Source: Acidobacteriaceae bacterium
GTDB lineage: Bacteria > Acidobacteriota > Terriglobia > Terriglobales > Acidobacteriaceae
Direction of reading: 5' to 3'
Length of the DNA: 64,000 bases
Assembly (NCBI GenBank): GCA_025361625.1
Contig: JANYKL010000166.1
Location: 1 to 64,000, forward strand
Shown here: piece after piece, positions 43,751 through 62,850 of the stretch
Layout: every line of letters starts with the position of its first letter
Position numbering within the stretch: position 1 is the first letter of the stretch
Program-made: the position numbers and the translations under genes
The notes under the pieces: generated by a model
Told to the model about the DNA's origin: nothing
The model's database searches: none
The model's input: the letters and a program-made list of their open reading frames with translations, nothing else

Positions 43751-43784
43751 AAATACTCCTTATTGTTTTAAAAGTGGATTTACT

Positions 43785-44344: not shown

Positions 44345-44390
44345 CTGTAAACACCTCCACCGCGAGATATAACGGCTGCGCAAGTTAAGC

Positions 44391-44837: not shown

Positions 44838-44856
44838 TGGTTAGATAGGTCCAAGA

Positions 44857-47829
44857 TTAGATATGTCCAAGGTTGACTGCAAAAACATCCCCACGCTGAG
44901 TCTGTGGTCCAATGTCTTGCCAAACAGTTCCACCGGGGCAACTCGTCGAGTAAGGAAGCACTGGATTCGAGCTCGACCCAGAGGCGCTGTCGCAGATCGT
45001 ATTTCCCGCAGCCGACGTTGTCGGTCCAACTGATGTGCTGAAGTAGGAGTTCGGCAACGCCGGGCCGGGCTGTGCAACTCCCGTCGGGCCGCCAACGAAG
45101 ACTGCCTGAAACACATCATCCACCGCGCCCGAACCTGTCGTTCCTTCAATAGGATTAATCATGTTCCCAGCTATGTAAGTAGTGCTTGGCGCCCAAGGCA
45201 GACCGCAAACGCTTGATGGGGTGGCAGGTACAGCAGTGACGACCAACATGCCGACGTGCGTACCTGAAGACCACACCGTCGGTGCTACTCCTGTGGTCGA
45301 TCCATTGTGACAATTCCAATCACTCGACCAGAATAACCAGTTCGCATCCTGCGAATATTCACTAATCTGGAATTGCGTAGAAAATGTCGCACTAGTGCCC
45401 GTGGCGAACGTGTGCGTAAACTGCCATACACTTCCCGCGCTCGTGGCGGGTAGAGCGGAACTGTCGTACGTCGGAGATGTTTGGTAGCAAGTTTCCATAT
45501 TCTGCCAGGCATTAAACCCCGGGCCGAGAGTCGCGTAATTAAACGATGTTCCGCACGCCGGAAATGTATCCGTCCCAGGGTCGCCAACCCAGCTCAAATG
45601 CGAGTCAAGAACCTCCGATAAATTGCAATCAGGATTCTGGATCGAACTGGTACTCACATAACAGCCGGACGGAAGCGCTTGTGAGATTCCAGAGCCGGCA
45701 TTTCCTAGCGGTTTGAGATACACGCTAAACTTCGGGATGGTATTAGCCGTCGAGGCGCTGTAAATGCTGGTGAACATTCCAGCCGTATAACCAAAAGCAG
45801 AGCCATTGAACGCCACCATTTTATTAGTGCCTATCGCCCAATGATTCATTCCGGCATATGTAAACTGAAGCGAGCTGAGTGAATTGAATGAAGAACTCGT
45901 CGTCTGCCACATCAGAAAATTCTGCAATGAATTGCAAGCCGGATAGACGTCGGATTGGCTCGTGATCTGGCCAAACAACCCGTTAGTACTGAGTTTGAGA
46001 TTGTGAACATAAAAAGGACATTCCTGCGCCGGCGTCGTATTCATAGGATTCGAAATTGCGTTCAACGTTCCTACGGTTACAGAGTTCCATGTCCCCGCTG
46101 AACAGACAGAATCCGTGCCACTTGAGCACGTCCAATCTGTCCAAATGCCTGTCAGTGTGTTCAAGAGGTGATAGACATTGCTGATGTGGTCATACTCTTC
46201 AAGCCATGCCCCCGACCCTTGGTCAGCTGTATATTTCGAGTAAGTTGGCGCAAGGCCATATGAATTGGTAGAAATCGCTATCCCATATTTGGACGACAAT
46301 CCGCCATAGGCAGTATCTCGACCAATGCCGCCGATAGCGTGCCATAGCTGATTACCGTTAGCTACTGGGTAACTCGGTCCCACATTAACCCACACAATCC
46401 CATGGGCGTCTCCGACTGTGGATGACATGATGTCGGGATGTCCGGTAAGCGCAACTGTTGCTCCAGACGTGCCAACGGTCTGCAAGCCCGGAGTCGCCAG
46501 GATAACTTGGCCGCTATTCTGAAAAGTAAGAATCGTAGTGTAGAGCGTGCCGGTACCGCCCGCGTTGCCTGCTCCACTGACAGAAATTGCCTGCCCTACC
46601 ATACCAGCGTTAAAAGGACTGCTAGACGAAGTGAGGACCGCGCTGGCCGCAACCATCGCCCCATTCGTTGCGACTGGCGAACCCACGGCAACCCAACGGA
46701 ATGCCGCAGTGGCAGAAACGCCCGCTGCCCCCATATTCTGATAGATAAACTGAGGTCCGCTGTTTGTCCCTCGCCATTGCAAACTGGATGGAGCAGCTTC
46801 TTTTACAATGTTGTTTTGGCATGGCGCTGTAGAATTGAACGCGCTTGCGCTAAGTAGCGTCGCGTTGGTAGCTCCCTCTACAATGGCACGGTACATGCAT
46901 GCCCCGCCAAAGGGCACGATAATATCTCCCGCGCTGTAGGCGGTTGTAACCGAGTAATTCAAATATTCGGGGAAGCTGGAACCGGGCGCCCCAAGGACGT
47001 GTGTCACATAGCTGCCATAAGGATAAGTTGTTCCGGTCGTCCAATTGTGCGAATTTGGTCCCATAGGCAGCCCGTACTGAAAATCTACAATTGGAGCTCC
47101 GACGCTATATGCTCCGTTATTAGAATTCAAGGTGTAAGGTGTAACTGTCAGCGGCGTTGAGATGTCAAAACTATCGTTCCCGAATGTGTACACGACACTC
47201 GGGTCCGTTAGCGAGAAACTCAACGACCCGAAGTCATTAGCTGGGCAGCTAGTGGTGCAACTTCCCCCAGTTAGTTGCCCTGTGGTTATGAATACTCCCG
47301 AGGCTGGTGCGGTGCCACTCCATCCTGCCGGCGGAGTCCCACAATGCCCGCGATTCGACCCGCTAGTAGCAAAGACACAAATCAGCCCGTTAGTACTTTG
47401 ATCGATACGCACTAATGTTGTGTTCGTATTCGTCAGAGTGAAAGCGCCAGAACCGCCCGCCCCCGCCGTAAAGTTGACGTTGGCTTTGCCCACGGCGCTG
47501 ACCGAATCAGTCAACCTTGTAACCGAACTCAAGAGCGATGAATTGTTGAAGGTGGTTACCCCGTCTCCGTTCAAATGACCCAAAAAGGAAGTGTCGACGA
47601 CCGTCGCCCCGTTGTTCGTTGCGCCGCCAAGATTCGGTACCGTGCCCCAAGGAACGACGTCAATGCCGGTGAAGGCACAAAAGTTTGGCGCTGCACAGCC
47701 GCTCCCTGACACCGAAAGCAATTCCTTTCCAGTGTCCGACCCGCCGCCTGTGTAGGCAGCTTGCCCCCAGCTAAGCGGACAGTGCAATGTGAGCAGGCTC
47801 ATGATCAAGGCTGCTGCAGCAGATTTCAT
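44857..47829 (-). CDS. Large secreted, beta-rich fibre-like protein
   Basis: A 990-residue protein from the ATG at 47829 (GGAG nine bases before). It has a signal peptide (MKSAAAALIMSLLTLHCPLSW) and a Ser/Thr/Gly/Asn-rich body. Repeats of the form Y-AGD/N-x-I/V followed by Y/F (near TAYSAGDIIVPFGGACMYRA and APSTTYIAGNMINPIEGT) resemble chitin/cell-wall-binding CBM5/12 modules. The middle looks like a beta-propeller (WLEEYDHISNVYHLLN, DANWLFWSSDW). Being exported by signal peptide is odd for a tail fibre. It may be host-type cargo sited between tail and lysis genes. Confidence 0.55.
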   Translation of the reverse strand: MKSAAAALIMSLLTLHCPLSWGQAAYTGGGSDTGKELLSVSGSGCAAPNFCAFTGIDVVPWGTVPNLGGATNNGATVVDTSFLGHLNGDGVTTFNNSSLLSSVTRLTDSVSAVGKANVNFTAGAGGSGAFTLTNTNTTLVRIDQSTNGLICVFATSGSNRGHCGTPPAGWSGTAPASGVFITTGQLTGGSCTTSCPANDFGSLSFSLTDPSVVYTFGNDSFDISTPLTVTPYTLNSNNGAYSVGAPIVDFQYGLPMGPNSHNWTTGTTYPYGSYVTHVLGAPGSSFPEYLNYSVTTAYSAGDIIVPFGGACMYRAIVEGATNATLLSASAFNSTAPCQNNIVKEAAPSSLQWRGTNSGPQFIYQNMGAAGVSATAAFRWVAVGSPVATNGAMVAASAVLTSSSSPFNAGMVGQAISVSGAGNAGGTGTLYTTILTFQNSGQVILATPGLQTVGTSGATVALTGHPDIMSSTVGDAHGIVWVNVGPSYPVANGNQLWHAIGGIGRDTAYGGLSSKYGIAISTNSYGLAPTYSKYTADQGSGAWLEEYDHISNVYHLLNTLTGIWTDWTCSSGTDSVCSAGTWNSVTVGTLNAISNPMNTTPAQECPFYVHNLKLSTNGLFGQITSQSDVYPACNSLQNFLMWQTTSSSFNSLSSLQFTYAGMNHWAIGTNKMVAFNGSAFGYTAGMFTSIYSASTANTIPKFSVYLKPLGNAGSGISQALPSGCYVSTSSIQNPDCNLSEVLDSHLSWVGDPGTDTFPACGTSFNYATLGPGFNAWQNMETCYQTSPTYDSSALPATSAGSVWQFTHTFATGTSATFSTQFQISEYSQDANWLFWSSDWNCHNGSTTGVAPTVWSSGTHVGMLVVTAVPATPSSVCGLPWAPSTTYIAGNMINPIEGTTGSGAVDDVFQAVFVGGPTGVAQPGPALPNSYFSTSVGPTTSAAGNTICDSASGSSSNPVLPYSTSCPGGTVWQDIGPQTQRGDVFAVNLGHI

Positions 47830-47937
47830 ATCTATCGCTCCAAAAAAGTTTTGCGTGGCTCCCAAATCTTGCATCAACTCCAACGCACACCTCTTCAACG
47901 AATGAGTCGCCCGCCAAGAGGGACGAGCCGAAACCTC

Positions 47938-48015: not shown

Positions 48016-49311
48016 ATGCCGACTGACGTTGTAATGCCTCAAATGGGGGAGTCAATCTTCGAAGGAACCATCACCAAGTGGCTCAAGAAAGCCGGTGAAA
48101 AAGTTCAACGCGACGAACCCCTCTTCGAGATCTCCACCGACAAGGTTGACGCTGAAATTCCCGCTCCCGCGAGCGGCGTTCTACAGGAAATTAAGGTGTC
48201 AGAGGGCAACACGGTCCAGGTCAATACGATCGTCGGCATCATCGGTGATGGGACTTCAAACGCCTCGACAAGTGCCAGCGCCCCATCCACAGCAGTTGCT
48301 CCGACGCCCCTTAACAGAGAGGCTAGTGCGCCTCCTCCTCAGCAACTCGCGGCCCAGGCCCCAGCGTCCGAAGAAGACGATTCGGATGTCCGTTCTTCTC
48401 CGCTAGTCCGAAAGTTGGCTCGAGAGCACAACGTGGACTTGGCAAAGTTGAGCGGCACAGGAACCGGAGGCCGGGTCACCAAACAAGACGTCCTTGACTT
48501 CGTGGACAATCGCAAGACCACATCAATTCAGCCAACCGAGGCCTCGGTTGAACGCTCAGCCTCGCCCTCTGCGCCACGTGCAACACCCCCCGCCTCGTCA
48601 ATGGTTACTGGCGACCTTGTCCCGATGTCCCAAATGCGCAAAATCATCGCTCAGCGCATGATCGAATCGCGTCGCACCAGCGCTCATGTTCACTGCATGT
48701 TTGAAGTGGATATGACCCGGATCGTCAATCTGCGAAACAAACTGAAAACTGGCTTCGAACAGCGCCACGGCGTTCGTCTGACCTTCATGCCATTTTTCGT
48801 GCGCGCCGCGATCATTGCACTTCAGCAATACCCAATCGTCAACGCTTCGCTCGACGGGGACAGCGTTCGCTATCACAAGCAAATCAACGCTGGCATCGCC
48901 GTGGCGCTGGATTGGGGCTTGATCGTCCCGGTTTTAAGGAACGCCGGAGATTTAAACTTTCTCGGCCTCCAGCGCGGCATCACCGACTTAGGCGAGCGAT
49001 CTAGAACCAAGAAGTTGATGCCTGCCGACGTCGAAGGCGCAACCTTCACCATTACTAACCCTGGCCAGTTTGGCGCAGTCTTCGGGTTGCCCATCATTAA
49101 TCAGCCCAACGTGGCAATCATGGGCGTCGGCGGAATCGCCAAGCAACCGATGGTAATCACTGACCAGGACGGTGCCGACTCCATCGCGATCCGTTCAGTG
49201 GTCCATCTAACTCTCGGCTACGATCACCGGATTATCGATGGCGCACTCGCCGATAAATTTATGCTCGCCGTTAAAAAGTCCATGGAAAACTGGAGCGAGG
49301 AGATCGGCTAA
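48016..49311 (+). CDS. Dihydrolipoamide acyltransferase (E2 component)
   Basis: A 431-residue core enzyme of a 2-oxo-acid dehydrogenase complex. In order: a lipoyl domain with the lipoylated lysine K43 in FEISTDKVDAEIP, an Ala/Pro/Ser linker, the E3-binding domain (SSPLVRKLAREHNVDLAKL) and the catalytic domain with H404 in LGYDHRIIDGALADKF. It is complete and looks fully functional. Whether it serves 2-oxoglutarate, pyruvate or branched-chain acids cannot be told. It is flanked on both sides by virion genes on the other strand, 12 bases from the hub gene's stop. No E1 or E3 lies near. Confidence 0.9.
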   Translation: MPTDVVMPQMGESIFEGTITKWLKKAGEKVQRDEPLFEISTDKVDAEIPAPASGVLQEIKVSEGNTVQVNTIVGIIGDGTSNASTSASAPSTAVAPTPLNREASAPPPQQLAAQAPASEEDDSDVRSSPLVRKLAREHNVDLAKLSGTGTGGRVTKQDVLDFVDNRKTTSIQPTEASVERSASPSAPRATPPASSMVTGDLVPMSQMRKIIAQRMIESRRTSAHVHCMFEVDMTRIVNLRNKLKTGFEQRHGVRLTFMPFFVRAAIIALQQYPIVNASLDGDSVRYHKQINAGIAVALDWGLIVPVLRNAGDLNFLGLQRGITDLGERSRTKKLMPADVEGATFTITNPGQFGAVFGLPIINQPNVAIMGVGGIAKQPMVITDQDGADSIAIRSVVHLTLGYDHRIIDGALADKFMLAVKKSMENWSEEIG

Positions 49312-49323
49312 CTTGTTCGATAC

Positions 49324-50652
49324 CTAGAACGGATAGTCAACACGCAGTGCCGCCGAATATCTGGAGTATTTCGGTGGCACACTATTGTCAAAGCTCTTCA
49401 GAAAGTAAACTTGAGATCTTGCATATCGCGTAAGCGAAAACGCGCCGCTCGTGAAGCGCCCAATCAAATTGCGGTTATTAGTAACTCCCCATCCCGCGTC
49501 CGAATTCCTCACCTCGATCCCGCCACCAGCCACTGGCGTCACGCCTGCATCGATAGTTACCGTGGTCGATCCTATATTAGTGAAATCGGCATTTGTTAAA
49601 TCATCTAGATAAGCATTTCCAACCTGCGTCAGTTCGACTGGAACTAAGGCCTGCCTTTGCTTCACTAGTGCCGTTAAAAATGCGAAGTCCAAAGAAGGAT
49701 CGCCCGCATCTACAAACCGGAGAGTGTATCGGCTGTTCTCACCCCCCAAATCTGCCAGTGACACTTTGACTTCGACAACGATCGCATTAAAAATTGCCCC
49801 CCGTGAAGGAACATTGATCGCCAGTCCATCCCCTGGAAAGATGTCGCTTGCCCCACCTGGCAAATAAGCTGACCACGCCTGATATTCGCCCGCCCACCCC
49901 TGCGTCGCATCATCCAGCAACGCCAGTGCGGCATTTTCGCAACCAATCGAGGTGCGCGGAACAGGTAAGCCAACCTGCCGAATATTCCCCCGCACACCAT
50001 CATCTCTGCCGTTGCTCAAGGCAGAAATACCGGCCGAGTTCACAATGCGCGCCGCAGCATGGCCCTCACCTCGATAACTCACCTCAATCAGTTGATTTGC
50101 CGCTGGGATATATTCCGGGTAAAACTCCACGGCGAGCGCGGAAGAAATCCGGCATTGCGCACCCTCAAGCAACGATCCGGTTAGCACGGTAATCGTGGTC
50201 GCACCAGGAATAGTGCTTCGCACCAATGCATCGAACGGTAGAGCGATATAAGTGAACGCGATTGCGGCATGAATCGCGCCCGCGTTAACGAGCGCGTAGT
50301 TGCAAAAGTCCGGCGCATTCGTTACTAGTCCGTCATAAAGAACGGTCGCAGGGGCAACCTGCGTTGCCGGATTTCCCGGATTAATATCCTGGACCTGCAA
50401 CACAATTCGAACGTTACATCCTATCGATTTACCGCCCAAAGCGTTGCCGATCCCATGCACTGAAGAATGAAAGACTTGTTGCGATCGATAAGCTTCAGCG
50501 GGATACAGTTGAGTGGAGAACACATAGTGGTGCCCCACCTGAGTGACTATCTGCGTACCTGCGACCGATCCCCCAACTAATGCCTGAATTGAGGTGTCAG
50601 ATCCTAAACGAGTAACTCGAAACCCGGCAATACATCCTTCGATGGATGGGCG
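49324..50652 (-). CDS. Baseplate/hub protein, C-terminal part (after a frameshift)
   Basis: The longer part of a gene split by a single-base shift near 50645-50652. From that point, SIEGCIAGFRVTRLGSDTS onwards, the protein reads through about 440 residues of structural-protein character, with beta-rich Val/Ala/Thr runs and no stop. It carries fragments such as IEVKVSLADLGGENSRYTLRF and ends LRVDYPF. The upstream continuation in the same frame is Arg/His-rich and unlike protein, supporting the split. The most likely role is the tail-tip or hub protein, from its position after the tail protein. Confidence 0.6.
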   Translation of the reverse strand, partial: RPSIEGCIAGFRVTRLGSDTSIQALVGGSVAGTQIVTQVGHHYVFSTQLYPAEAYRSQQVFHSSVHGIGNALGGKSIGCNVRIVLQVQDINPGNPATQVAPATVLYDGLVTNAPDFCNYALVNAGAIHAAIAFTYIALPFDALVRSTIPGATTITVLTGSLLEGAQCRISSALAVEFYPEYIPAANQLIEVSYRGEGHAAARIVNSAGISALSNGRDDGVRGNIRQVGLPVPRTSIGCENAALALLDDATQGWAGEYQAWSAYLPGGASDIFPGDGLAINVPSRGAIFNAIVVEVKVSLADLGGENSRYTLRFVDAGDPSLDFAFLTALVKQRQALVPVELTQVGNAYLDDLTNADFTNIGSTTVTIDAGVTPVAGGGIEVRNSDAGWGVTNNRNLIGRFTSGAFSLTRYARSQVYFLKSFDNSVPPKYSRYSAALRVDYPF

Positions 50653-51406
50653 TCCCGCGTATAATCGGTTTTTGTGACAGGTGGAATTTCGTCGTGTGTC
50701 CGTCCCCGACAAAGAAGTCTTTCACGTGTGCCGCAGGCTCTAGCTCTCCTAGGATTGTTAGATCATTCACGACACGGTCTACGCTCTGCAATCGCAGTCC
50801 GGCCGGAGAGAATGAAGCATCCTGTTCCGTCATTGCATAAGCACTCGCCCCAAGGGGCGCGAGGAACAGCTTCCCGTCTAGGTCACGATAAGAACAGCGA
50901 CCAGCAACTGCAATTTCCGCGGCAAGTTCCGTCCACTTCTTCGCCGGATCGACGTTGAAGTAGGGACAGGTGTCCCCCAGTTCAACGCCGCTTAGGTCGA
51001 AAAAGTTGGGAAGCGCGTCTTGAGTCAATTGCGTGAAGGCATCGCCAGTTCTCCGGTTTACGAAAGCAGGATGAGGTGGTGGCGCCTTCTCATCCATCAA
51101 GGTGACATCGCTGAGTGCATTTACTTCGTACCGATAGACTGAGCCGCGATCTCCCCATCCAACATACGTGCCCGCTGGTGGTTGGGCGGTATACCCCGTA
51201 AACAAATGCATCCCGCTATCGGCAATCAGTATCACGCGAGCGTGGTGCGCAGGCACTACGAAAGGTCCTGGCCCTGGCACCAAGCCGAACTTCATTTCTG
51301 CCGGCCGGTTAAGTCTGCGCACTAGTGTCGCAGGCTGCACCGGATCCAGAACAGACGTATGATCTTGCAGCCCGAGACCGTCCGAATTGTCGATCAGCAA
51401 TTTCAT
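50597..51406 (-). CDS. Baseplate/hub protein, N-terminal part (before a frameshift)
   Basis: The start at 51406 (MKLLIDNSDGLGLQDHT) is chosen over an in-frame ATG at 51442. The frame runs well to HLSQKPIIRGTP and then degrades to an Arg/Ser-rich end. At the same bases the alternate frame continues SIEGCIAGF. One extra base in the CCC run at about 50648 would explain the split. The joined protein would be about 700 residues. It could be a true mutation, a sequencing error, or less likely programmed frameshifting. Confidence 0.6.
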   Translation of the reverse strand: MKLLIDNSDGLGLQDHTSVLDPVQPATLVRRLNRPAEMKFGLVPGPGPFVVPAHHARVILIADSGMHLFTGYTAQPPAGTYVGWGDRGSVYRYEVNALSDVTLMDEKAPPPHPAFVNRRTGDAFTQLTQDALPNFFDLSGVELGDTCPYFNVDPAKKWTELAAEIAVAGRCSYRDLDGKLFLAPLGASAYAMTEQDASFSPAGLRLQSVDRVVNDLTILGELEPAAHVKDFFVGDGHTTKFHLSQKPIIRGTPIHRRMYCRVSSYSFRI

Positions 51407-51477
51407 AAGCTTCGTGGTATGGCTTTCACAGGACTGCTGCACCTGCAGGGTGTTGTCTGCCTTGGAGCCGCGGTTTG

Positions 51478-52455
51478 TCAGTAAACTGGCGAACCGCTGG
51501 CGGGAAAGTAACTCCTATAACTGAGAACGAGGGCCGCGTCGTTGCCGTCAGTAGTCGGAAGAGAAATGAAGGCGGCATGTAACGCCATCTGTCCGAGAGG
51601 TTTCTGTATTTCGGCAAGGCTTTCTCTTACCCAGTCGCTCTTAACGGTACAGGGACTCAAAATCGGATAATAAAAACAAACTCTACCGCCCGATTCGTCC
51701 TCCGCCACAAACAACGCAGTCCACTGCTGAAGAAATGTCCCGCCTTCACGGTCCACAAACGCAGTTACTCTCTGCACCGAAGCCCCCGCGAGGGGCGGGC
51801 CCCCAGGTAGTGCCTGGGCAAGCACCAAGGACCCAGGCGTTGTAAATGCCACCCGCCCAACGTTGAATGTCACCCGCCGAACGTAGTTGGTATCTTGCCT
51901 GACGTTGGCGGAGCTCTTGACATAGGCCGCCGCTACGCCGCTACCCACGTACCCAACCTGCTGCGCATAATCCACGTCGCAGGCGATTAAGTCGCCCGTC
52001 CGAAAACCGCCGGCCGAGCCAGTTCCCAACAAAAGTTCGGTAGCTGAGGAGCCTGGGAGCAATGGAACCGCCGCCAGCGCCGTTCCTCCAGATCCAGCCC
52101 GATTTGCGCTTGGGTCGCTCGCAAGCACATTCATGTGCTCCGCTCCACCAGCGAGCGCCATCTGCAATTTACCCCAATCGCGAAACTCAAACTCCACCCG
52201 CGCGCCCAAGGCGTGGCGTGCCTGTCTAGCAACTGCTCCTGCAGCACCTGCACTCAGCTCTTCAATTTGAGAAGTAGTGGTCCTCTTAAAATTTTCTATC
52301 CACCCCAAATCAATCCAGGGTGCTGGCGGCGCATCCAGTTGAAATCCGCTATCCTTCGACGGATCGAAGATAGTCATAGGTCCATTTACTCGGTCAACCG
52401 CAGCGAAGTATGCTCGCGTCTGTCGTGATATCGGTCGTAGCCCGGCGCGGCTCAC
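51478..52455 (-). CDS. Putative major tail protein
   Basis: A 325-residue beta-rich protein with no signal peptide. The segment APWIDLGWIENFKRTTT followed by ALGARVEFEFRDWGKLQMAL is like tail-tube proteins. The start overlaps the preceding gene by four bases (ATGA). It lies in the place of a tail-tube gene between neck and hub. No chaperone or tape-measure gene follows, which is odd for a long-tailed phage. Confidence 0.55.
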   Translation of the reverse strand: MSRAGLRPISRQTRAYFAAVDRVNGPMTIFDPSKDSGFQLDAPPAPWIDLGWIENFKRTTTSQIEELSAGAAGAVARQARHALGARVEFEFRDWGKLQMALAGGAEHMNVLASDPSANRAGSGGTALAAVPLLPGSSATELLLGTGSAGGFRTGDLIACDVDYAQQVGYVGSGVAAAYVKSSANVRQDTNYVRRVTFNVGRVAFTTPGSLVLAQALPGGPPLAGASVQRVTAFVDREGGTFLQQWTALFVAEDESGGRVCFYYPILSPCTVKSDWVRESLAEIQKPLGQMALHAAFISLPTTDGNDAALVLSYRSYFPASGSPVY

Positions 52456-52970
52456 GCCTCAACCTCAGGTAAGAAAAAGTAAATCCGCAGCTGAGCCTGA
52501 CGACTTACGCGTCCTCTCCCCGCACTCCATTGTTGTTTTTCAACCGCGCGGCCTTCGAGCACATTGTTCATCTCTGGCACCGTCCAGAAAATTCCCGATC
52601 CAAGGTTCGCAATCGGAGTCTGGCTGTAGTCAAACATTGCTGCATGGGGCGGATCACACATGCCTAACAGTTCTCCATCCATTTCCGCGAGCATCCTTCC
52701 CCGATCCACGCCCGTCCCCCCGCTACCCTCACTCGCATACCAAATCTTGCAGTCGATTCCAAGCATTGGACGCGAACTTTCCGCAATTAGAATTTCACCA
52801 AAGTCCAAAAAAAACGCTCCCGCTTGCGCTTCAACAAATCGCGGCTCCATATTTTCCCGTACAACGATTGCCGGAACTGTTACGCCGTCAATCACCATAG
52901 TGCGCGAAGGATTAAGCCCCACCAATCGTTCCCTTAAGGCAACATAAAAACTATCTTTGGCTGCTTGCAT
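52452..52970 (-). CDS. Neck/tail-completion protein, putative
   Basis: A 172-residue protein (MQAAKDSFYVALRERLVGLNP) with an alpha/beta layout. Position between the connector and the tail protein, and the length, fit a tail-terminator or neck protein. No motif is decisive. It is coupled to the tail gene by a four-base overlap. Confidence 0.45.
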   Translation of the reverse strand: MQAAKDSFYVALRERLVGLNPSRTMVIDGVTVPAIVVRENMEPRFVEAQAGAFFLDFGEILIAESSRPMLGIDCKIWYASEGSGGTGVDRGRMLAEMDGELLGMCDPPHAAMFDYSQTPIANLGSGIFWTVPEMNNVLEGRAVEKQQWSAGRGRVSRQAQLRIYFFLPEVEA

Positions 52971-53039: not shown

Positions 53040-53444
53040 CTAGGAAACTGCAACCACCCGATAGAGGTAACTCACCCCTCCAAGCCTTTCGACCACGAAA
53101 CCTTCTATGTGGAACATCTCGCCGAAGTACACTAAACCCAACGCCGTCTCGAAGAGCACATCGCCCGAAGCGACATTTCGCTGGCTGATTGACTCCGCCA
53201 AAGCCGCATGGCTCGCCAGTACTTCCAACCGCCTTCGGGGGCCGCTAATCTCTGTGGTTATTTCACTAACTATCACCGGCGAGATCGCAACCAGCACTAC
53301 TCCAGGGTCGATCAAACCGAGTTGAGCATTCGCACCCCCGGGGTGTCCTGCTGCCGCAAAGACCAACGCTATTTGGGCCCCGCCAAGAGTCTGTAGCATC
53401 GCATCAGCTGCACGCGCTGCTGCCGTTCCAGAAATCCCAGTCAT
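53040..53444 (-). CDS. Head-tail joining protein, putative
   Basis: A 134-residue protein, Ala/Val/Gly-rich, with the segment GDVLFETALGLVYFGEMFHIEGF. Position just after the gp6-like connector suggests a head-closure or joining role. No family motif is seen. The start is six bases after the upstream stop. Confidence 0.45.
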   Translation of the reverse strand: MTGISGTAAARAADAMLQTLGGAQIALVFAAAGHPGGANAQLGLIDPGVVLVAISPVIVSEITTEISGPRRRLEVLASHAALAESISQRNVASGDVLFETALGLVYFGEMFHIEGFVVERLGGVSYLYRVVAVS

Positions 53445-53450: not shown

Positions 53451-54080
53451 TCACCCAACCTTCCGCGCTACGTAAGGCGCCAGCAATGACTGCACCGTCG
53501 CATCCATCAATGAATCAGAGAAGTACATCAACTGCATTCGGTCAGGCAGCACGTTCCGCTTCACATTGAGCGCCGGAGTTGCCTGCGCATTTCTGACAAT
53601 CTGCGCGCACGCCACTTTCACCACGTCAGGAAACGTGGCAAGACCTGCCGTATACACAATTTCGATCTCAGTGAACGTCCAGCCAAGAGCGTTGATTGGA
53701 AGCGTAATTTCTCCGGTAACGGAAAAATAGTCCAGATCCGCAACATTTAGCCTTACCCACGTGCCGGGAATCCCGAACACAATCGCCGCATCCCAAACAA
53801 TCGAGTCATATTCCATTTCTCCACGCCGCGGCGTTGAGTACCGTGCTTGGGCCGAAACAATTGGAAAGGTGGCCGGATCTACCGCACTGAGAGGCAAATA
53901 AGTAAGGCGCAGCGGGCGATGGCGATTCTCCGTTCGGAGTCTCTCGGTATATGTCGCAATTCCAAGCGTCGTTCTACTGCAATGAGCGTCGATAATCGCC
54001 GACGCTGCCGTCACCCACGATAGAGCTGTTGTAGGTTCGAGTCCGTATAGCTCGTATTCTGATGGTTGCAGGTAATTCAT
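53451..54080 (-). CDS. Head-tail connector (gp6-like adaptor), putative
   Basis: A 209-residue protein whose start YLQPSEYELYGLEPTTALSW and helices (AASAIIDAHCSRTTLG, VVKVACAQIVRNAQATP) match the small adaptors that sit under the portal in HK97-like phages. Gene order, capsid upstream and joining proteins downstream, supports this. Confidence 0.55.
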   Translation of the reverse strand: MNYLQPSEYELYGLEPTTALSWVTAASAIIDAHCSRTTLGIATYTERLRTENRHRPLRLTYLPLSAVDPATFPIVSAQARYSTPRRGEMEYDSIVWDAAIVFGIPGTWVRLNVADLDYFSVTGEITLPINALGWTFTEIEIVYTAGLATFPDVVKVACAQIVRNAQATPALNVKRNVLPDRMQLMYFSDSLMDATVQSLLAPYVARKVG

Positions 54081-54170: not shown

Positions 54171-55139
54171 CTACCGGTTTACCTTCACTTCGTAATGGGC
54201 ATAATTCGCCCCCTTGACCACAACACCGCCAAATTTAACGACGACGCTTTCTGTGAGCAGCGAGTTCGGCAATCCCAGTTTGAATACTCGTGGATTAGGG
54301 TCCGTCAGCCAGTGATACTCAATCATGTCTTCACTGATGATGTACGCCGGTAGAACGCTGCCCGCCCCGCCCGTTCCCGTGTAAGGCAAAGTCCATTCGG
54401 GAATAAGCGGCAGATCACCGGCCTGCGTGCTCAACATCTTTACCGTTATTCCTCCTGTGATTTGGGATGTTGAAAGAACAACGTTGAACTCCGCCTTCAT
54501 CTCGCGATCAATCAGATCGAGTAAGACGGGATTCGCATAAATAGCCGTAGGCCTGACTTCGTACGACGACGCCGATACCATCTGTGCGATCGTGCTCTTC
54601 AGTCCGTCAACGATGCTGGCCCCCGCCGCAACAGTAGTGGTGTTACCACCCGCCTCAATCTGCCCGATGGCGCCGAAATATTGGGAAGTGGTCGAAGCCG
54701 TCAAAGACGTGTCATTACCGTTCCATAGCGCGACATCGTGCGTGCGCATAAGTCCGGTCACCGCATCGGCCAGGTCTTTAGCTTGCAGATATGCAAACTG
54801 GCTCTGCTGCATCCCGACTTCGGTGTCGAACAAGCTGTAGTTGATCTGAGAAACAAGAGCCTTCAACGGAACGCTACGTTCCACTCGAGTTGGCGCCTGC
54901 GTCGTGGGCACAATTGCCCTTGGATCAACGAATGCCTGAGCCGCACTTGGGGAGGCAATCGCGGTCTGCTCAAAGAACTGAGACGGATGTCCCGTTGCTG
55001 GCACTTGCTTTATGCGCAGTCCGAACGCGCCTCTCCGGCGAACAATGTCGGTGATCTCTGACTGATACCTCGGAACTTCCACCGCACCCGGCCCCAGAAA
55101 GTCCGCAGCAGCGTGTAAATCCAAAAAATTCGCCTTCAT
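54171..55139 (-). CDS. Major capsid protein, HK97-fold type
   Basis: A 322-residue protein starting at 55139 behind a TAGGAG Shine-Dalgarno (MKANFLDLHAAADFLGPGAV). It has the usual capsid layout: an N-terminal arm (ITDIVRRRGAFGLRIKQVPA), a spine helix region (AFVDPRAIVPTTQAP), and an A-domain segment with TAIYANPVLLDLIDREMKAE. It follows a protease gene and a scaffold-like coiled coil. Identified by layout and order rather than by sequence match. Confidence 0.7.
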   Translation of the reverse strand: MKANFLDLHAAADFLGPGAVEVPRYQSEITDIVRRRGAFGLRIKQVPATGHPSQFFEQTAIASPSAAQAFVDPRAIVPTTQAPTRVERSVPLKALVSQINYSLFDTEVGMQQSQFAYLQAKDLADAVTGLMRTHDVALWNGNDTSLTASTTSQYFGAIGQIEAGGNTTTVAAGASIVDGLKSTIAQMVSASSYEVRPTAIYANPVLLDLIDREMKAEFNVVLSTSQITGGITVKMLSTQAGDLPLIPEWTLPYTGTGGAGSVLPAYIISEDMIEYHWLTDPNPRVFKLGLPNSLLTESVVVKFGGVVVKGANYAHYEVKVNR

Positions 55140-55296
55140 GTTTTCTCCTAAATTAAGATTTCGTTCCAAATCCGCAGCAAAATCTTCAGATCGTTCCGCT
55201 CTTCTAATTGCTGTTGATTCACAATAAGAAGTCGCAATAAAAAAAGGTGCGACTAAGCCGCACCCATCGCACTCGAAACGTCGTAATTGTGAACAA

Positions 55297-55725
55297 TTAG
55301 TCGATCATTCCCGCCCTTGCCAATTCTGCCTTCACTGCGATACGTTGCTCGACGCTAAGTGTCGACAACGTCTTGTTGAGCATGCCCTCATCAAATCGCT
55401 CACTATCGATGGCGTTTTTCCCAATAAGGGCAGACACGACGGGAGACAAAGTTTTACGCACCATCCGCGAAGCCTGGGCTTTTAATTCAGCATTGGATTT
55501 CTCCAATTGATCCACGCGTTTCTGGACTTCGGTGCCTTCCGCCCCACTGCTCTGTTTGTCAAACTGAGAAATGCTTTCCTCGACAGCAGCCACTATTCGA
55601 TCCACTTTTGCGTTGAGAACTTCTTGTTGTGCATCGAGTTTTCCCAATACGCGATCTAGTGTCTCGCTTGCCGCAGCCAACCGTTCGGCCGCGATCACCA
55701 TTTGCTGGACGATTTCTTCACTCAT
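55297..55725 (-). CDS. Coiled-coil scaffold-like protein
   Basis: A 142-residue, highly helical, charged protein. Heptad-like runs are seen in LAAASETLDRVLGKLDAQQE and KRVDQLEKSNAELKAQASRM. No hydrophobic core motif or signal peptide is visible. Position between the protease and capsid genes is where a scaffolding protein is expected. Confidence 0.5.
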   Translation of the reverse strand: MSEEIVQQMVIAAERLAAASETLDRVLGKLDAQQEVLNAKVDRIVAAVEESISQFDKQSSGAEGTEVQKRVDQLEKSNAELKAQASRMVRKTLSPVVSALIGKNAIDSERFDEGMLNKTLSTLSVEQRIAVKAELARAGMID

Positions 55726-55789: not shown

Positions 55790-56353
55790 CTATGCAAGTT
55801 CAATCCAAGTCGAACCATAGGCTGCCTTATCTCGCCTCAGTACAGCCGCGCCAGTGAACGTAACCCGGTTCAAAACCCACACGCTAGCCTTGATGTCTTC
55901 TACCAGCGCATCAGTGATCTCGTAAGACATGCCAAGCTCCGCGCCCGACATGCTTTCTGCCTTCCCGCCAGTCTGGGGCGCCGCCGAGATCGTCTCATTC
56001 CGTAGTCGAGACCTTCCTATCTCCTTCACTATCTCCGGAAAATCCCTCGCATATAGAAAACCGCCAACTTCGATTGCTCGTCCCACAATCTCCGCCCGGG
56101 TGATTACTCCAATTTTCCTGCGAGCATCGTGCCGGTCCAGCCCAGGCGAGTAATCAAGCCCCATTCCCATAAGCGAGGGAATGGCTGCCTCGGCGGCGCT
56201 GCGAGTCAGCAGCACGCGATGGCCTCGTGCGCCAGACGGAGACTTGTCTGACGCAGCATCCACGCTAGTCAGCACTCCCCGAAATCCGGCCCGATTCGGG
56301 TGCCCGAATACCGTCGGCATGTGTATCGCCATCGATTCCAAAGACAATCCCAT
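55790..56353 (-). CDS. Putative prohead protease
   Basis: A 187-residue protein between portal and scaffold genes. It opens MGLSLESMAIHMPTVFGHP, with a HDARRKIGVITRAEIVGRAIEVGGFLYA segment. This resembles the small HK97-type head-maturation proteases. I cannot point to a definite Ser-His pair, so the call rests on order, size and general shape. Confidence 0.5.
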   Translation of the reverse strand: MGLSLESMAIHMPTVFGHPNRAGFRGVLTSVDAASDKSPSGARGHRVLLTRSAAEAAIPSLMGMGLDYSPGLDRHDARRKIGVITRAEIVGRAIEVGGFLYARDFPEIVKEIGRSRLRNETISAAPQTGGKAESMSGAELGMSYEITDALVEDIKASVWVLNRVTFTGAAVLRRDKAAYGSTWIELA

Positions 56354-56402: not shown

Positions 56403-57698
56403 TTACGATGATCCGATGATCTCTGCCAGTCCTCGCGCCCGTCGTACTTCATTCACAGTAACCACGCCGTTGCGGAGCAGGATTTCATCGATTTGAGCTT
56501 GTTCCATTTCGTCCTGCGCATCGACGTCGGTGAACACAAATTCCAGATCAGACCATCCCAGCCTTTTGCAAATCACATCTCGCGTAAGCGACTCGGCAAT
56601 TAAGCGTGCCGTTGGCACGATTGCCGAGCGAAATGCCATCTCCGTCATCTCCGCGGCCGTAGACCGATTCACATCCTGTTCGAGCCCGAGGAATACCGCC
56701 GGCAGGTCAAAGGCATTTGCGATGATACGAATTAGAAATTCCTGCCAGGCCAGCCTTAGATCAGCGTCCGTTCCCGCCCCGAATCGCAACACTTCCGGTT
56801 TAGACTCCGCGGAGATAATCGGTACCCGCCCCGTTCCTTCAATCTCGTCCTGCCACCATCGGATCAAGCGCTCATGGTGAGCGGGAGTCAAACCCTGGAG
56901 CCAAATCGCATACTGCACCACTGAATTCGTTGCAAGCTGTCCTGCGTAGCGGTACGCGCCCAGGAAAGCGCTGATGGTTTCAAACGCAACTTCTACTCGC
57001 CCCAATCCAAAGGGCGTGTGCGATCGTGGATTCAGCCGGATATAACTAAGTTCGTTATCATCGAGAACGACCTGCCCCTCCGCGCCGTAAAGCCCTGTAA
57101 CCTGCGCATACCTCGGTGAATCCGGATTCCCATTCCAATCCGTCATGATGCGTATCGTCGCCCCGTCCACCGGCCACATCACTAAAGGCAGCGAGTGGAT
57201 TGCCGAGCTATGTTCGGTCACGGCATGATCGCTTAGTCCTATTTCAATCGCTCCGAATCCACCCACGATCACATCTTCCAGAACTTGCTCGAGCAAAGAC
57301 CGGAATGAATCGTCAGGATTAGGCGCTTCAAAATTCTCCGTGAGCAACTGAATTCGATATGCACCATCCGGAATTTGCTCGATGGTTCGTCCTCGCCGAG
57401 GCTGAATGCGCCAGCGCATACCCACGATCCGGTCCTTAATCACATTGATCGCGCGGCGAGCCACCGGAGTTTCCGCGAATTTACGCAAATTAGCCGGCGT
57501 TGGCTTCAGGGCTAGATTCTGTGACGTAGGAGCGCCCGCCCGCGCAAAAGCCGGAGAATATAACGGGGCCAGGTTCGACCCCGCTCCCACTGTCCGCCGC
57601 CCGTACATACCGGCGTCAGAACCTGCGGAAAACAAACCTTGCAAAGACATTGTTCCTACTCGGCGAATTACTTCGCGAACTTTTTCCTGAATTTTCAT
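56403..57698 (-). CDS. Phage portal protein
   Basis: A 431-residue portal with the DUF935/HK97-type layout: KPTPANLRKFAETPVARRAIN, EQVLEDVIVGGFGAIEIGL, LNPRSHTPFGLGRVEVAFET, and the helix IIANAFDLPAVFLGLEQDVNRST. It forms the ring through which DNA enters the capsid. In a standard cluster terL would lie immediately upstream, but here the HipA/DUF3037 cassette and a terminator come between. Confidence 0.85.
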   Translation of the reverse strand: MKIQEKVREVIRRVGTMSLQGLFSAGSDAGMYGRRTVGAGSNLAPLYSPAFARAGAPTSQNLALKPTPANLRKFAETPVARRAINVIKDRIVGMRWRIQPRRGRTIEQIPDGAYRIQLLTENFEAPNPDDSFRSLLEQVLEDVIVGGFGAIEIGLSDHAVTEHSSAIHSLPLVMWPVDGATIRIMTDWNGNPDSPRYAQVTGLYGAEGQVVLDDNELSYIRLNPRSHTPFGLGRVEVAFETISAFLGAYRYAGQLATNSVVQYAIWLQGLTPAHHERLIRWWQDEIEGTGRVPIISAESKPEVLRFGAGTDADLRLAWQEFLIRIIANAFDLPAVFLGLEQDVNRSTAAEMTEMAFRSAIVPTARLIAESLTRDVICKRLGWSDLEFVFTDVDAQDEMEQAQIDEILLRNGVVTVNEVRRARGLAEIIGSS

Positions 57699-57845: not shown

Positions 57846-57875
57846 GCAAAAACGGCATGGCTCTCGCCATGCCGT
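57846..57875 (-). terminator. Rho-independent terminator after the DUF3037 gene
   Basis: A perfect 10-bp stem, ACGGCATGGC paired with GCCATGCCGT around a 4-base loop (57852-57875), is followed on the minus strand by TTTTTGCG. It ends the HipA/DUF3037 unit before the portal gene. Confidence 0.85.
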
Positions 57876-57918
57876 CGTCATATACAAATATTGCCTTACG
57901 AACGCTCTGTCCCGTCAC

Positions 57919-58746
57919 TCATGGTAGCTGCCAGGAACTCCGGGCTAGAGTCGCATCTCCATCCGTATTCCCGACGCAATCCCTTCGATATCCCCCAGAG
58001 TTTTCACAATCACTCCGCTTTGTACCCATGGTGTCGATCGCAAACTGATTGCGCTCTTCCTTTACCGCAGGCCGATGTTCCAATATCGCCGTAAATGAAG
58101 GCTGGAGCTGTTCCTGCCGCATCATCTGTTCGATCCGGGAATATCGATAGGCCAGCGCCAATGCCTGGTCCACATTGACAGCAACTGACACACCGTGAAA
58201 CATCTTCAATGTCGCCCCCGTCCGGTATCCAAAATCGATCCGAAACGGATCTCCGACACCCATGTATCTTCCCATGTCCAAATCAGTTTGCATGAGCTTA
58301 AGCACCCCGGCTTTCGAAAACGCCTCGGACATCTGGTACACGATCGCCTTTCGACCAGCCCGGTGCGGCTCATCTCCCCGGCTACTAGCTGCTAAATGAA
58401 TAGCAGTCAGAGTTTCCATCTCTTTCGCGGGATTATCTGCCAGTATCCCCTTCACCGGCGCGACATCGAAAGTGGAACCGAATGTAACTTCGATGAGCCG
58501 CCTGACATCTTCATGATTCTGTACGAATTGCAATTGGTCGCGAATTTCTCGTTCCGCCGCTTCCAGCCACTCCAGTTCCATCTCAGGGGCAATACAACGC
58601 AACAGGTGCCAGTCCCGCGTGAAGCGCATATCTTTAAACCAGCCGTTATCCTCCAACAGGGTGAATCCGATAGTGATGAAATCGTCTCGCCCTGTAAACG
58701 GTAAGAACCGCAAAAGAGAAAGCTCAAATTGTCGTCTCTCGGTCAT
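57919..58746 (-). CDS. DUF3037-family protein, C-terminus frameshifted
   Basis: A 275-residue protein. MTERRQFELSLLRFLPFTG opens it, and the body (APVKGILADNPAKEMETLTA, FGYRTGATLKMFHGVSVAV) matches the DUF3037 pattern as I know it from acidobacteria, next to a HipA-like kinase. The last residues after about 240 (TKRSDCENSGGYRRDCVG) look like wrong-frame sequence. The neighbouring frame reads VIVKTLGDIEGIASGI and stops at 57945. A single extra base near 58025-58031, in a GGG run, would restore a normal end. Function of the family is unknown. Confidence 0.7.
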   Translation of the reverse strand: MTERRQFELSLLRFLPFTGRDDFITIGFTLLEDNGWFKDMRFTRDWHLLRCIAPEMELEWLEAAEREIRDQLQFVQNHEDVRRLIEVTFGSTFDVAPVKGILADNPAKEMETLTAIHLAASSRGDEPHRAGRKAIVYQMSEAFSKAGVLKLMQTDLDMGRYMGVGDPFRIDFGYRTGATLKMFHGVSVAVNVDQALALAYRYSRIEQMMRQEQLQPSFTAILEHRPAVKEERNQFAIDTMGTKRSDCENSGGYRRDCVGNTDGDATLARSSWQLP

Positions 58747-58776
58747 GGAGATTTATTCAGTCATTCACTCGCAGCA

Positions 58777-59582
58777 TCAAGACTCATACGGCCACTGCGG
58801 AAACGGCCTTCGGGGCGATCCGCGAAAAGCTAGTATTAACTCACGGACTACAGATTTCCGCTCGATTAAGTGTTTCACCAACAACTCCAGTTCATCCCAT
58901 AAACCGCCGTACCAAGCGGGTGGTATCTCTCCTGCCACACGCCAAATCGCCTCGTCGCTCAACTTCTCAACCCGCGATAACCAGGGCTCGAAAGACTCCC
59001 ACCCATTCACGCGCGCGTATACTTCATTTCTCGGGTACACTCCCCTGAGCGGGAAGTCCGGAAACGTCCATTCCCCGGCATTGAAGCAATATCCTTGGTC
59101 GATGAAGGTCGCAGAAAATTTTTTCTCTCGTGACTTTTTCCAGAAAGCCGCTTGCCGCCCATCCGCATTACAGGTCCACTTATCTATCGCAAGCATCCCC
59201 GCGAACGTCTCAATATTCCTTACTCTATTGAGAAGGTCAGCGTCCAGGAATTCGCACATATTCCCGTCGACGGGCTGACCACATATCGCGAGCCAAACTG
59301 CAGTCCCGACTCGACTTTTATTTCTCGTCCACTAAGTAAAATGGAAAGTTCAGCTGTATTCTCCACCAACCACGGCTTCACTTCGATGACTTCAACTACA
59401 GGCACCGGTAAACCAACAATTCCTGCCAATCTTGTGGCAAGAAATTCATTTGCCAGTACTCGTTCATGTTGCGGGTTGTTACGAAACTTTACGACATAGT
59501 AATGAGCGTCATCACATCGCATTAGATGACTCTGTGATCCTCCACGCATTCTTCTCAGATGTTGGACCGCTTGGGTGGTCAT
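58777..59582 (-). pseudogene. HipA-like kinase gene split by a frameshift
   Basis: The first part (59582 to about 59262) holds RGGSQSHLMRCDDAHYYVVKF, with the ATP lysine, and the helix HERVLANEFLATRLAGIVG. The second part (from about 59259 to 58777) holds DKWTCNADGRQAAFWKK (catalytic D and N) and ATFIDQGYCFNAGEWTF. The two frames overlap near 59258-59268 at GGAATATG, where a one-base loss moves one into the other. Joined, the protein would be some 265 residues. HipA-type kinases are serine kinases of toxin-antitoxin and related systems. The DUF3037 gene follows. The real state may be a sequencing error. Confidence 0.7.
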
Positions 59583-59678
59583 AGCTTCACAAGCGTGTCA
59601 TCACCTTCGTACTCGTTGCTAAGTGAAAGAGAACCAATCCGAGACACCGACGGACGATACTCCGCGCTGGCCTATTCC

Positions 59679-59698
59679 AGTGTGACGACCGTCACACT
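59679..59698 (-). promoter_or_regulatory. Palindromic operator candidate before the HipA-like gene
   Basis: A 20-base palindrome, AGTGTGACG-AC-CGTCACACT, with perfect 9-bp arms. It starts just past the terL stop and lies about 100 bases upstream of the HipA-like start. Dimeric repressor binding is inferred; a hairpin terminator is unlikely because no T-run follows on either strand. Confidence 0.5.
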
Positions 59699-59706: not shown

Positions 59707-61176
59707 TTAGCTATTGGATAGCGCGTCCCATCGAGGCCCGGAACGCGTCCGGCCAGCTTCCGTTCTTCTCACCTCCCACGCAATCGCTAGTGCCATAACG
59801 CAATCGTCGTGGGTTCCCGCCGCCGCCCCGGTATTTCCATCTGCTCCCCGAACAAATGTGCGGCACTCGTTCAAGAGCCGCAAGCTTCGAAACTTTGCAG
59901 GATCTTCCGCCAGCGCTAACGCCAGATTCTCAATCATCACCGGCCTGCTAACCGCCGACGTCAGCCACCCATCTTGTCCTTTTTGCACGTATATATTTGA
60001 ATAATCCAATGTATGTAGAAGGGCCAGCACTGCGTGTCCATGGTTGTTGCGTTCTACCGCAATCAAACCGCAGTTGTATTCTCTTCCCAGCTCCACCAAC
60101 TTCCGGGCGAATTCGCGCGGAGGATAATGCCCGCGCAACTCCGCACACTGGGCGCCCATCTCACGATCGATTACTTCCGCGCATGAATAATCTCCTTCCG
60201 CGCCGCCCCCCGCTGGGTCCACGCCAATGACATATTCTCGTCCAGGCCTCGCCGGCAACCAGGTCATAAACCGACCATTATCACGGCTCTCCAAAGGTTC
60301 CGTCGCAAAACTCAAGGCCCGTTCCACAGCTTCTAGGTCGAAGACACAATCGCCGGACGCCAGAAAGCACGAGACATCATCCTCCCCAAACTCTTGCCCA
60401 GTGAACTTCCGCAATAGACTTCGTTGTTTCCGGCGCCATGAAAGCTGACGATGATCGATACCGTGATTCTTAACTAATTCGATCTCATCTTCTGCCAGCG
60501 GAAACATGTCGCTCCCCGGCTCCATCCTGTAACTGGGTTCGAACCACCACGGGAAAAAATGCTTCTCATACCCAGTTTCGTTCGCCCTCTGCCACTCGTC
60601 GTAGAACAGGCCCCCCGCGCCATTAGGCGTGGACTCCATCACAATCTCACCCCCCGGAACTACCGCAGCTCGCAAAGATGCCAGCACTTCTTCGCCACCC
60701 CGTCCCCATCGGGCAACTTCAGAACAGTGCAAATTTTGAATCGTTATTCCCCTACCCGCGTTCTCGGCGGCCGATGCAACCAAGTACTCACTGTCAAGGT
60801 GCGGAAACGCTAATTGCCGCGCGTTGCTGCGGGACGTTGCTAAGGTCCCATTCCGGCAGTCTTCCGGTAATCCATCCCAAAATCGATGAACAATTCGAAA
60901 AATATCCTCGGCCGATTCTCGGTCTTGGGCGACCTGCAAAGTTACAGTTCCTCCCTTGGTGATTGTCTCCAAAAAAAATCGAGCCGCAACGTATGTCGTA
61001 ACTCCTAATTGCCGGGCCTTGAGAACAATGTTTTTCTTTCCGCACCGCCGTGAATATTCACGTTGCGCCCGGTTTAATCTGAAGCTTGTTTCCTGGGAGG
61101 TCTTGCCACGTATGTTAAGCCAGCGCTCGATCAGCACATCTCTCAGAGTAGGAGTCCACAAGCCCTCTTCCTCCAT
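59707..61176 (-). CDS. Terminase large subunit
   Basis: The packaging ATPase/nuclease. Read from the ATG at 61176 it has 489 residues. Walker A is NIVLKARQLGVTTYVAARFF; the Walker B/coupling region is IQNLHCSEVARWGRGGEEV and MESTPNGAGG; the nuclease acids lie in VIGVDPAGGGAEGDYS and GTHDDCVMALAIAWEV. All key residues are present. The frame is continuous with the upstream secreted-protein fragment to 62364, with no stop, so the annotated product may be an 885-residue fusion. No small terminase is adjacent. Confidence 0.85.
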   Translation of the reverse strand: MEEEGLWTPTLRDVLIERWLNIRGKTSQETSFRLNRAQREYSRRCGKKNIVLKARQLGVTTYVAARFFLETITKGGTVTLQVAQDRESAEDIFRIVHRFWDGLPEDCRNGTLATSRSNARQLAFPHLDSEYLVASAAENAGRGITIQNLHCSEVARWGRGGEEVLASLRAAVVPGGEIVMESTPNGAGGLFYDEWQRANETGYEKHFFPWWFEPSYRMEPGSDMFPLAEDEIELVKNHGIDHRQLSWRRKQRSLLRKFTGQEFGEDDVSCFLASGDCVFDLEAVERALSFATEPLESRDNGRFMTWLPARPGREYVIGVDPAGGGAEGDYSCAEVIDREMGAQCAELRGHYPPREFARKLVELGREYNCGLIAVERNNHGHAVLALLHTLDYSNIYVQKGQDGWLTSAVSRPVMIENLALALAEDPAKFRSLRLLNECRTFVRGADGNTGAAAGTHDDCVMALAIAWEVRRTEAGRTRSGPRWDALSNS

Positions 61177-62364
61177 ACGCTCGTAGCTCTTTGAAACCGT
61201 CACTCCATTCGAGGTGTTCGCCGTGATCGACGAATCCCGCAACGTAATCACCGGAGCAATCTGCTGCGCCTGATTGCCCGCGGAAAAGACAAAAGATCCA
61301 GTCCAGTTCGCATTCCCGTTCAAACTGATCGCGTTGTTGTTGAAGTGCGTAATCGTAACGTTCTCGTCATCCCACAAATCAAAAAAGTTATTGAACTTCC
61401 CATTCTCCCCGACCTTGTCGTAAGAGATATCCGCAAGATTGGTATTTACTGCGTTATCGAGGATCGCCACATAGGCCAGGGCAACAACCCCCGGCGTCGT
61501 CTGCGCCGCCAGATCCGCCCCCGCGTGCGCATACTGAAATGTGGTTGCATTCGGCACTGCCGTGACGATCGCATCTCCCCAATACGCGCTGGAGTCGGTG
61601 AACAGAATCGTCACCATATCTCCAACCCGAAAACCGTGTGCGGAGCCGGTACTCACCGTCACCACCTGCGAGGTTCGCTGCGTCTGCGCAATTGCGACGC
61701 CGGCAAACGACGGATTCGTCGACAAATCCACCGGAGCGCGAAAACTCAATCCCAACACCGTCGTATTCGTATAATCGTTTGAATTCTTTAAATCTCCCAC
61801 CTGCAAGCAAGCCCCGCGCCCCAAACAGTTCAACGACACCCCATAGCCATTCAATACCGACTGATTCGCATGCAAATAAATCGTCCCATACACGTTGTAC
61901 GTGTTGAGCGAAGATTTGTGCTCCTTGCCCGAGGCGGGACCGTCGGGAGGGACCGCGACATTACAGTGAGTATTGAGGTAGGTAGTTTTGTCGATGCCAC
62001 AGGCTAAATTGATCGCTTCTTGTATTCCTGTAGAAGCAGATCCTATCGCTGCGCCGCTAGCATAGGAAAAAAAAGGAACGACGGCGATTGTGCCCGATGC
62101 GGCACCGGAAACACAGCTTCCGGAAACCACCCTGGCGGCCTCGCTCTTGCCGCCGCCTGAAATAAAAATGTCGTACCCAGCCCGGCTCGTCGTATCAATG
62201 CCCGCCGGACAGGGAGTTAACCGGATCGTGGCCAGTTTTCCAGCGGCGATCGGGAGAGAAGATGTTTGCTTCCAGTCCAGGGCTGCAATGCCGGTTTCGG
62301 ACGCCGCCGAACCACTTATGATGAGGGACAAAGCGAAGGTCGCAGCAAATTTTAGACGTGCCAT
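61177..62364 (-). pseudogene. Truncated secreted beta-helix protein fused to terL
   Basis: From the ATG at 62364, 396 residues with a signal peptide (MARLKFAATFALSLIISGSA) and a parallel beta-helix-like body. Landmarks are STGIQEAINLACGIDKTT, TYNVYGTIYLHANQSVLNGYG and DDENVTITHFNNNAISLNGN. It ends VTLRDSSITANTSNGVTVSK with no stop and then passes directly into the terminase frame. Proteins of this kind are far longer, so the 3' half is missing. The junction is a deletion or recombination scar. Confidence 0.65.
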
Positions 62365-62850
62365 ATCGCCTCTGGATTTAGCGTGCGTTGATTCGTTGAC
62401 AAAACGTTGATTTTGACAGGAAATTGGTTTTGACAGGAGATTGGAAAACGACATGCTTATTGAGAAACTTTTGAGTGAAAGACATCTAAGCACACGCGAT
62501 TTAGAAGGGCTCACTTGCTTTGAGGAAAATGAAGGCCCCTCGCTTGGCCTGTGCTTGGCGCAAATACAAGTCGGGAATCATTGCAGAGCGAGGCGTCGCA
62601 GCGATAGTGAATAGCCGCTGATTTAGGCCGCAAATCTGCTACCAATCTTCCGCATCCACCCCCGCATCAACATCTTCTTAGAGTACACGGTGGCGCGGCA
62701 GCGAACGGAACAACAATTCAAACAAACTTGACCGGACCATCCGCTCCGCTTGATCCCTTTTAGTTTATCTTCGGTTGCTAACGGTCGTTCCATCCAAGCA
62801 AGATTGTGCAAGAACCGAGTACTTGAGAATTTAGATTTGATAGGAGCGGA
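62365..62850. other. Intergenic region before the GNAT gene
   Basis: About 486 bases without a supported gene. It has a 17-base tandem repeat (62411-62444). A 53-codon open frame from 62453 has poor coding character. It separates the phage-derived side from the normal genes at the right end. Confidence 0.4.
62411..62444 (+). repeat. Two-copy 17-bp tandem repeat
   Basis: TTTTGACAGGAAATTGG at 62411-62427 is followed directly by TTTTGACAGGAGATTGG at 62428-62444, with one mismatch. Each copy contains a TTGACA hexamer, so it may be an operator or overlapping -35 elements. Confidence 0.7.

Follow-up and report, generated by a model that had tools for sequence, protein, structure and literature searches.

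The closest described relatives of the gene pair considered here come from work on bacterial anti-phage defence. A HipA-family kinase with an adjacent DUF3037 protein, PDC-M66 in PADLOC, was assayed as part of Retron-Sda1, where deletion of HipA abolished defence and deletion of DUF3037 was toxic (PMC12548924). The system, also described as DS-6 and since renamed HipAD, loses its defence activity when the kinase carries a catalytic mutation (PMC13092281), and its occurrence in E. coli prophages is credited there to an earlier report (reference 35 in PMC13092281). For the phage genes that surround the pair, the appropriate reference is the gene transfer agents, which are known to depend on sigma-like activators, and in the case of the Caulobacter agent also on a repressor and on anti-termination (PMC9638019, PMC11150451). 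Within the phylum itself, Eichorst et al. 2018 described a ‘Cluster 153’ of acidobacterial prophages, for which the relevant part of their paper gives a Koribacter interval of 5.15-5.19 Mb (PMC5900883).

In the window, i.e. the whole stretch of 64,000 nucleotides that was analysed, the genes for TerL and portal (56403-57698, minus strand; PF04860, E=6e-43) are separated, as the original prediction had stated, by two minus-strand genes, one for a HipA-like protein (PF20613, E=4e-10) and the other for a DUF3037 protein (PF11236, E=8e-8), although hipA is not a single gene in the window. Judged by sequence, the pair belongs to the HipA-DUF3037 toxin-antitoxin system already described as anti-phage (PADLOC PDC-M66 or DS-6, now HipAD). 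The family assignments of the original prediction are borne out by these two Pfam matches and by intact relatives, which match the PDC-M66A and PDC-M66B profiles with E=5e-10 and 6e-10, respectively; the HipA part of the window gives a weak PDC-M66A match (2e-4), and its DUF3037 part gave no match to the PDC-M66B profile. Residues D134, N139 and D162 of HipA, which we read from their motifs as the catalytic residues, are invariant in 28 relatives and are kept in the window, albeit in a split gene. HipA has TerL and DUF3037 as its only neighbours, with no HipB-type HTH antitoxin beside it. A sequence-based search for solved HipA structures returned nothing useful, and a weak resemblance of the C-terminal half of DUF3037 to PD-(D/E)XK folds was not used as an argument. 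The suspected anti-phage context of the pair agrees with the defence role published elsewhere for HipAD (PMC12548924, PMC13092281). The statement that no role is known for DUF3037 no longer holds, as DUF3037 neutralises the toxicity of HipA in a published system; by analogy with other bacteria, from which these functions are taken, HipA would be the toxin and DUF3037 its neutraliser here as well.

The window copy is, on the evidence of its reading frames, decayed, with three frameshifted cluster genes and a fused TerL. The N-terminal part of the broken hipA (59220-59582, minus strand), the N-lobe carrying the PF20613 match, aligns with the first ~100 residues of the single ORF of about 268 aa present in relatives; the C-terminal, catalytic part lies in another frame (58777-59259, minus strand) and retains the kinase motifs DKWTCN and IDQG, the two ORFs being offset by the loss of one base near 59272 relative to these homologues. 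Programmed frameshifting in hipA was rejected because no slippery site was seen at about 59272 and the gene occupies one frame in all relatives compared. An exact 36-mer across the frameshift junction had no match in IMG/VR. The DUF3037 gene (57919-58746, minus strand) loses its family frame near 58019-58027, and the family C-terminus, ending in ...SGVIVKTLGDIEGIASGIRMEMRL*, runs on in another frame with a stop at 57945. Both genes of the pair are thus frameshifted and neither is intact in this genome; as a consequence, the superinfection exclusion once proposed is not to be expected from the window copy.

The remaining genes, all on the minus strand, form a recognisable phage-derived cluster. 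TerL (59707-61173; phrog_2, E=2e-28), which has 519 aa in relatives, lacks about 33 N-terminal codons in the window, where it is fused in frame to a truncated beta-helix/fibre ORF (61174-62514) so as to give a composite reading frame of 59707-62514. Elsewhere, the beta-helix/fibre ORFs upstream of TerL are huge and variable, with 800-2000 aa (L051:2080-4644, L064:14319-19256, L067:3-6149). Downstream of portal follow a probable prohead protease (55790-56353) and a probable scaffold (55297-55725), both assigned by position in a conserved order, the former having no family match, and the major capsid protein (54171-55169), with 79% mean column identity across 28 genomes. Two of these 28 capsids match SU10_MCP; the structure model is poor (pLDDT 50), and its top PDB fold matches, among them HK97-fold capsids and an encapsulin, are weak. 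A head-tail adaptor (53451-54080; phrog_442, E=2e-10) is followed by three genes whose order is conserved in relatives (53040-53444, 52452-52970 and 51478-52455, the last possibly a tail gene) and by a tail gene of ~780 aa, which is split in the window into a 5' part (50597-51442) and a 3' part (49324-50712) and is one 781-aa ORF in L051. No tape-measure gene was found in the cluster, and no integrase or replication genes were noticed among those flanking ORFs that were scanned. The usual neighbour, a sucB-like host gene (48016-49311, plus strand), separates the cluster from an endolysin gene (44391-44837, minus strand; phrog_894, E=2e-33), which forms a module, likely the lysis module of the cluster, with a fibre ORF at 44857-47898 and a small ORF at 43127-43750. 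This region (43127-47898) lies between sucB and GlnRS, and the same layout is seen in L148 and L149. The host ORFs next to the window cluster are long and uninterrupted.

Maps of about 40 loci gave a common order of fibre ORF, TerL, HipA, DUF3037, portal, protease, scaffold, capsid, adaptor, small genes and ~780-aa tail protein, an order that spans about 30 genera, with sucB often next after the tail gene and pointing back; sucB and portal lay no more than ~13 kb apart in 26 genomes. Intact copies of the pair occupy the same position in dozens of soil Acidobacteria. A search of relatives with the portal found a single copy in nearly all carriers, all from the family of the window, and a class-wide search with the capsid found exactly one match in each of 84 out of 399 genomes, 81 from the same family and three from a second family of the Terriglobia (f7); a phylum-wide sample contained no capsid outside the class. 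In the three f7 loci (L144-L146) HipA-DUF3037 lies 5' of portal, with TerL seen in two, and a small contig (L125, G023:C152) with an f7-type TerL-HipA-DUF3037 arrangement in a family f1 assembly is probably contamination. In genus g50 the head genes are relocated and the pair is still with TerL. Some members of the window family are without the whole cluster, and the pair is also found alone elsewhere in chromosomes. In G078 (L062) the cluster has unrelated ORFs instead of HipA-DUF3037 between TerL and portal, and in G055 (f7; L138:8970-12225) HipA-DUF3037 alone stands directly beside sucB, as if the phage genes had been deleted around it. The portal of G078 is located at 5.171 Mb and would, if G078 is Koribacter, as seems likely, fall inside the Koribacter interval of Cluster 153. 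The cluster of G292, presumably T. saanensis, at 0.09 Mb does not match the Cluster 153 interval at 3.78 Mb, and for this reason the identity of Cluster 153 with the present cluster is tentative.

The cluster is a mostly vertically inherited, single-copy chromosomal locus, with some conflicts. Distances between its core proteins follow those of RpoB with a Spearman coefficient of 0.85, compared to 0.78 for HipA and 0.59 for DUF3037 (Mantel 0/500 each). In trees built with FastTree, 7 of 23 RpoB splits are shared with the element tree, vs 0.27 at random, and 4 of 9 strongly supported RpoB splits conflict with it, which implies a degree of exchange or of tree error. The 36 element HipAs all group in one clade, together with three others, one of them beside TerL. 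Element HipAs of families f7 and f1 are not clearly sisters, hence more than one entry or replacement of the pair is conceivable. Same-genus dN/dS values of 0.085 (HipA), 0.09 (capsid), 0.14 (portal), 0.27 (TerL) and 0.27 (DUF3037) place the cluster genes under purifying selection, bearing in mind that a mean dN/dS does not separate defence from another function.

The comparative data support hipA-DUF3037 as a putative autonomous transcription unit, as had been proposed, with promoter/operator and terminator signals conserved across genera. The operator-like inverted repeat between terL and hipA (59679-59698) is not a perfect palindrome of 20 bases, as was first described, and consists of 9 bp, 2 nt and 9 bp, AGTGTGACG-AC-CGTCACACT; its equivalent in relatives is a TGTG-N-TCACA motif. 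Of 33 genomes, 8 carry TGTG-N5-9-[GC]TCACA upstream of hipA (mean 0.0, maximum 1 in shuffles), 13 carry GTCACA (1.0 in shuffles) and 19 a -10-like hexamer (2.1 in shuffles), enrichments that are partly post hoc because the motifs were selected after inspection of the alignments. The strong terminator of the original prediction, an intrinsic one 3' of DUF3037 (57847-57875, minus strand), has a perfect 10-bp stem with a GAGA loop (57852-57875) followed by a T run, and recurs at this position in the gaps of 19 of 31 relatives, against 0.7 expected from shuffles. Upstream of the fibre ORF, in f7 too, there is a Cro/C1-type HTH gene together with a protein of ~150 aa weakly similar to sigma-70 region 4; the two are divergent in L156:17902-19745, L158:18046-19914 and L157:14063-15926, and the C-terminal part of the HTH protein appears S24-like by eye. 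The sigma-region-4-like gene lay on the contig of the cluster in all 12 carriers tested; the window genome and G055 lack it. By analogy only, the regulation of the acidobacterial cluster may resemble that of known gene transfer agents.

An additional ORF separates HipA from DUF3037 in five species from the genus of the window (G002, G004, G008, G017, G021) and in one IMG/VR contig that is almost identical to G008; it joins the N-terminal part of DUF3037 to a Peptidase_S24 domain (E=8e-31). In this DUF3037-LexA chimera (L051:7397-8173, and likewise in the G002, G004, G017, G021 and V47 loci) the Peptidase_S24 domain is about 90% identical to the C-terminus of the host's own LexA-like protein. 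In the sequences inspected the domain retains the AG cleavage site as well as the Ser and Lys positions, and dN/dS values of 0.14-0.28 indicate purifying selection on it. A reasonable inference from its sequence is that it may serve as an SOS-cleavable antitoxin.

Taken together, the window pair is probably an inactivated HipAD whose home is the terL-portal gap of a phage-derived cluster that is passed down as one chromosomal locus in the Acidobacteriaceae and part of a second family, and that most likely encodes a gene transfer agent or a similar domesticated particle. Of the features by which gene transfer agents are recognised, the cluster displays vertical inheritance, a single copy at a conserved site, and purifying selection on the structural genes, and it has the appearance of a gene transfer agent not described before. 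In intact relatives, hipA-DUF3037 would be transcribed from its own promoter and halted at its own terminator, so that the pair could be active when the capsid genes are silent; DUF3037 would bind and restrain HipA, and phage attack would free the kinase, which would then stop growth. Where the chimera is present, DNA damage might release HipA, and the cluster itself would be activated by the upstream sigma-region-4-like regulator, itself under the Cro/C1-type regulator. Particle production, gene transfer, SOS control and the direction of regulation are what we infer from this arrangement. A bolder version is conceivable, though we would not bet on it: the Acidobacteriota may possess a lineage of gene transfer agents that is ancient and so far undescribed, with an anti-phage kinase toxin-antitoxin pair in its packaging module; in one genus, duplication of the antitoxin and its fusion to the host's own LexA protease domain would have put the toxin under direct control of DNA damage.

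The original prediction had taken the pair for a defence or superinfection-exclusion moron, which would imply an ordinary temperate prophage whose relatives integrate repeatedly near sucB. Phage genes do surround the pair, and both the report of HipAD from E. coli prophages and the prophage label given to such acidobacterial loci in 2018 point the same way. We nevertheless regard this as improbable in view of one copy per genome, RpoB-like inheritance, sucB as a fixed neighbour, regulators linked to the cluster and, among the flanking ORFs scanned, no integrase noticed; nor was there a close relative of the portal among 50,697 phage records, the best identity being about 25-27%. The promoter and terminator expected of a moron seem to be there by sequence, but mobile carriage with variable presence is not, the pair being fixed in a locus that is single-copy and mostly vertical across about 30 genera. 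A common chromosomal pair with no mobile association, the counter-case named at the outset, holds by half: the pair is common and chromosomal, yet associated with phage genes. Assembly errors might in principle account for the frameshifts and conceal an intact window pair. There is only one assembly, and the second frame preserves the kinase motifs; on the other hand, the damage affects three genes within one cluster, next to long and uninterrupted host ORFs, TerL is fused as well and the sigma-like regulator is missing, which leaves little room for this explanation.

Two further explanations concern what the intact pair does, and both appear unlikely to us. It might be an addiction module that persists because its loss kills and thereby stabilises the cluster, without any role in defence, for which one can cite the G055 pair that stayed beside sucB without phage genes and the toxicity published for a relative devoid of DUF3037 (PMC12548924). 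Yet G078 and other genomes do without the pair or without everything, the window lineage broke both genes, and the published relatives do defend. Alternatively, HipA might halt growth or protein synthesis in particle-producing cells, with the timing set by DUF3037 or by the LexA chimera. Such a role would suit the fixed position within the packaging module, the strong selection, and the chimera found in five species and an IMG/VR contig, but not so well the separate transcription unit of the pair, its solitary occurrence elsewhere in chromosomes, or the cluster that G078 retains without it.

Our verdict is that a known anti-phage toxin-antitoxin pair has become fixed in an old cluster resembling a gene transfer agent and is decaying in the window genome, with gene transfer as a putative function of this cluster. 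If so, gene transfer agents, so far recorded from few bacteria, would extend to a phylum dominant in soil, and a new anti-phage system is tied to a domesticated phage maintained by vertical descent. The chimera would offer a testable link from SOS to toxin release, and the conserved terminator between toxin unit and capsid genes would predict anti-termination, as in CcGTA (PMC11150451). A literature search returned no relevant paper on gene transfer agents of Acidobacteria or on a toxin-antitoxin pair within one.

Compared with the described systems, the pair shares with HipBA and HipBST a HipA-family Ser/Thr kinase and an antitoxin partner, but the partner in the window lineage is DUF3037, without a HipB-type HTH antitoxin or HipS. 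With HipAD (DS-6, PDC-M66) it shares the kinase adjacent to a DUF3037 protein in one unit and, in intact relatives, the kinase residues, whereas the window copy is broken, the copies of this lineage reside within a vertically inherited phage-derived cluster, and some come with a DUF3037-LexA chimera. The members of Cluster 153 are described as prophages, and the relevant part of that account makes no mention of vertical inheritance, HipAD or the regulators (PMC5900883). Unlike RcGTA and CcGTA, the acidobacterial cluster, for which no homology is claimed, has a toxin-antitoxin module between terL and portal and no visible tape measure. Like them, however, it is a capsid/portal/terminase cluster that is present in a single copy, inherited vertically and kept under purifying selection, and the sigma-like and HTH regulators linked to it recall GafA, GafYZ and RogA.
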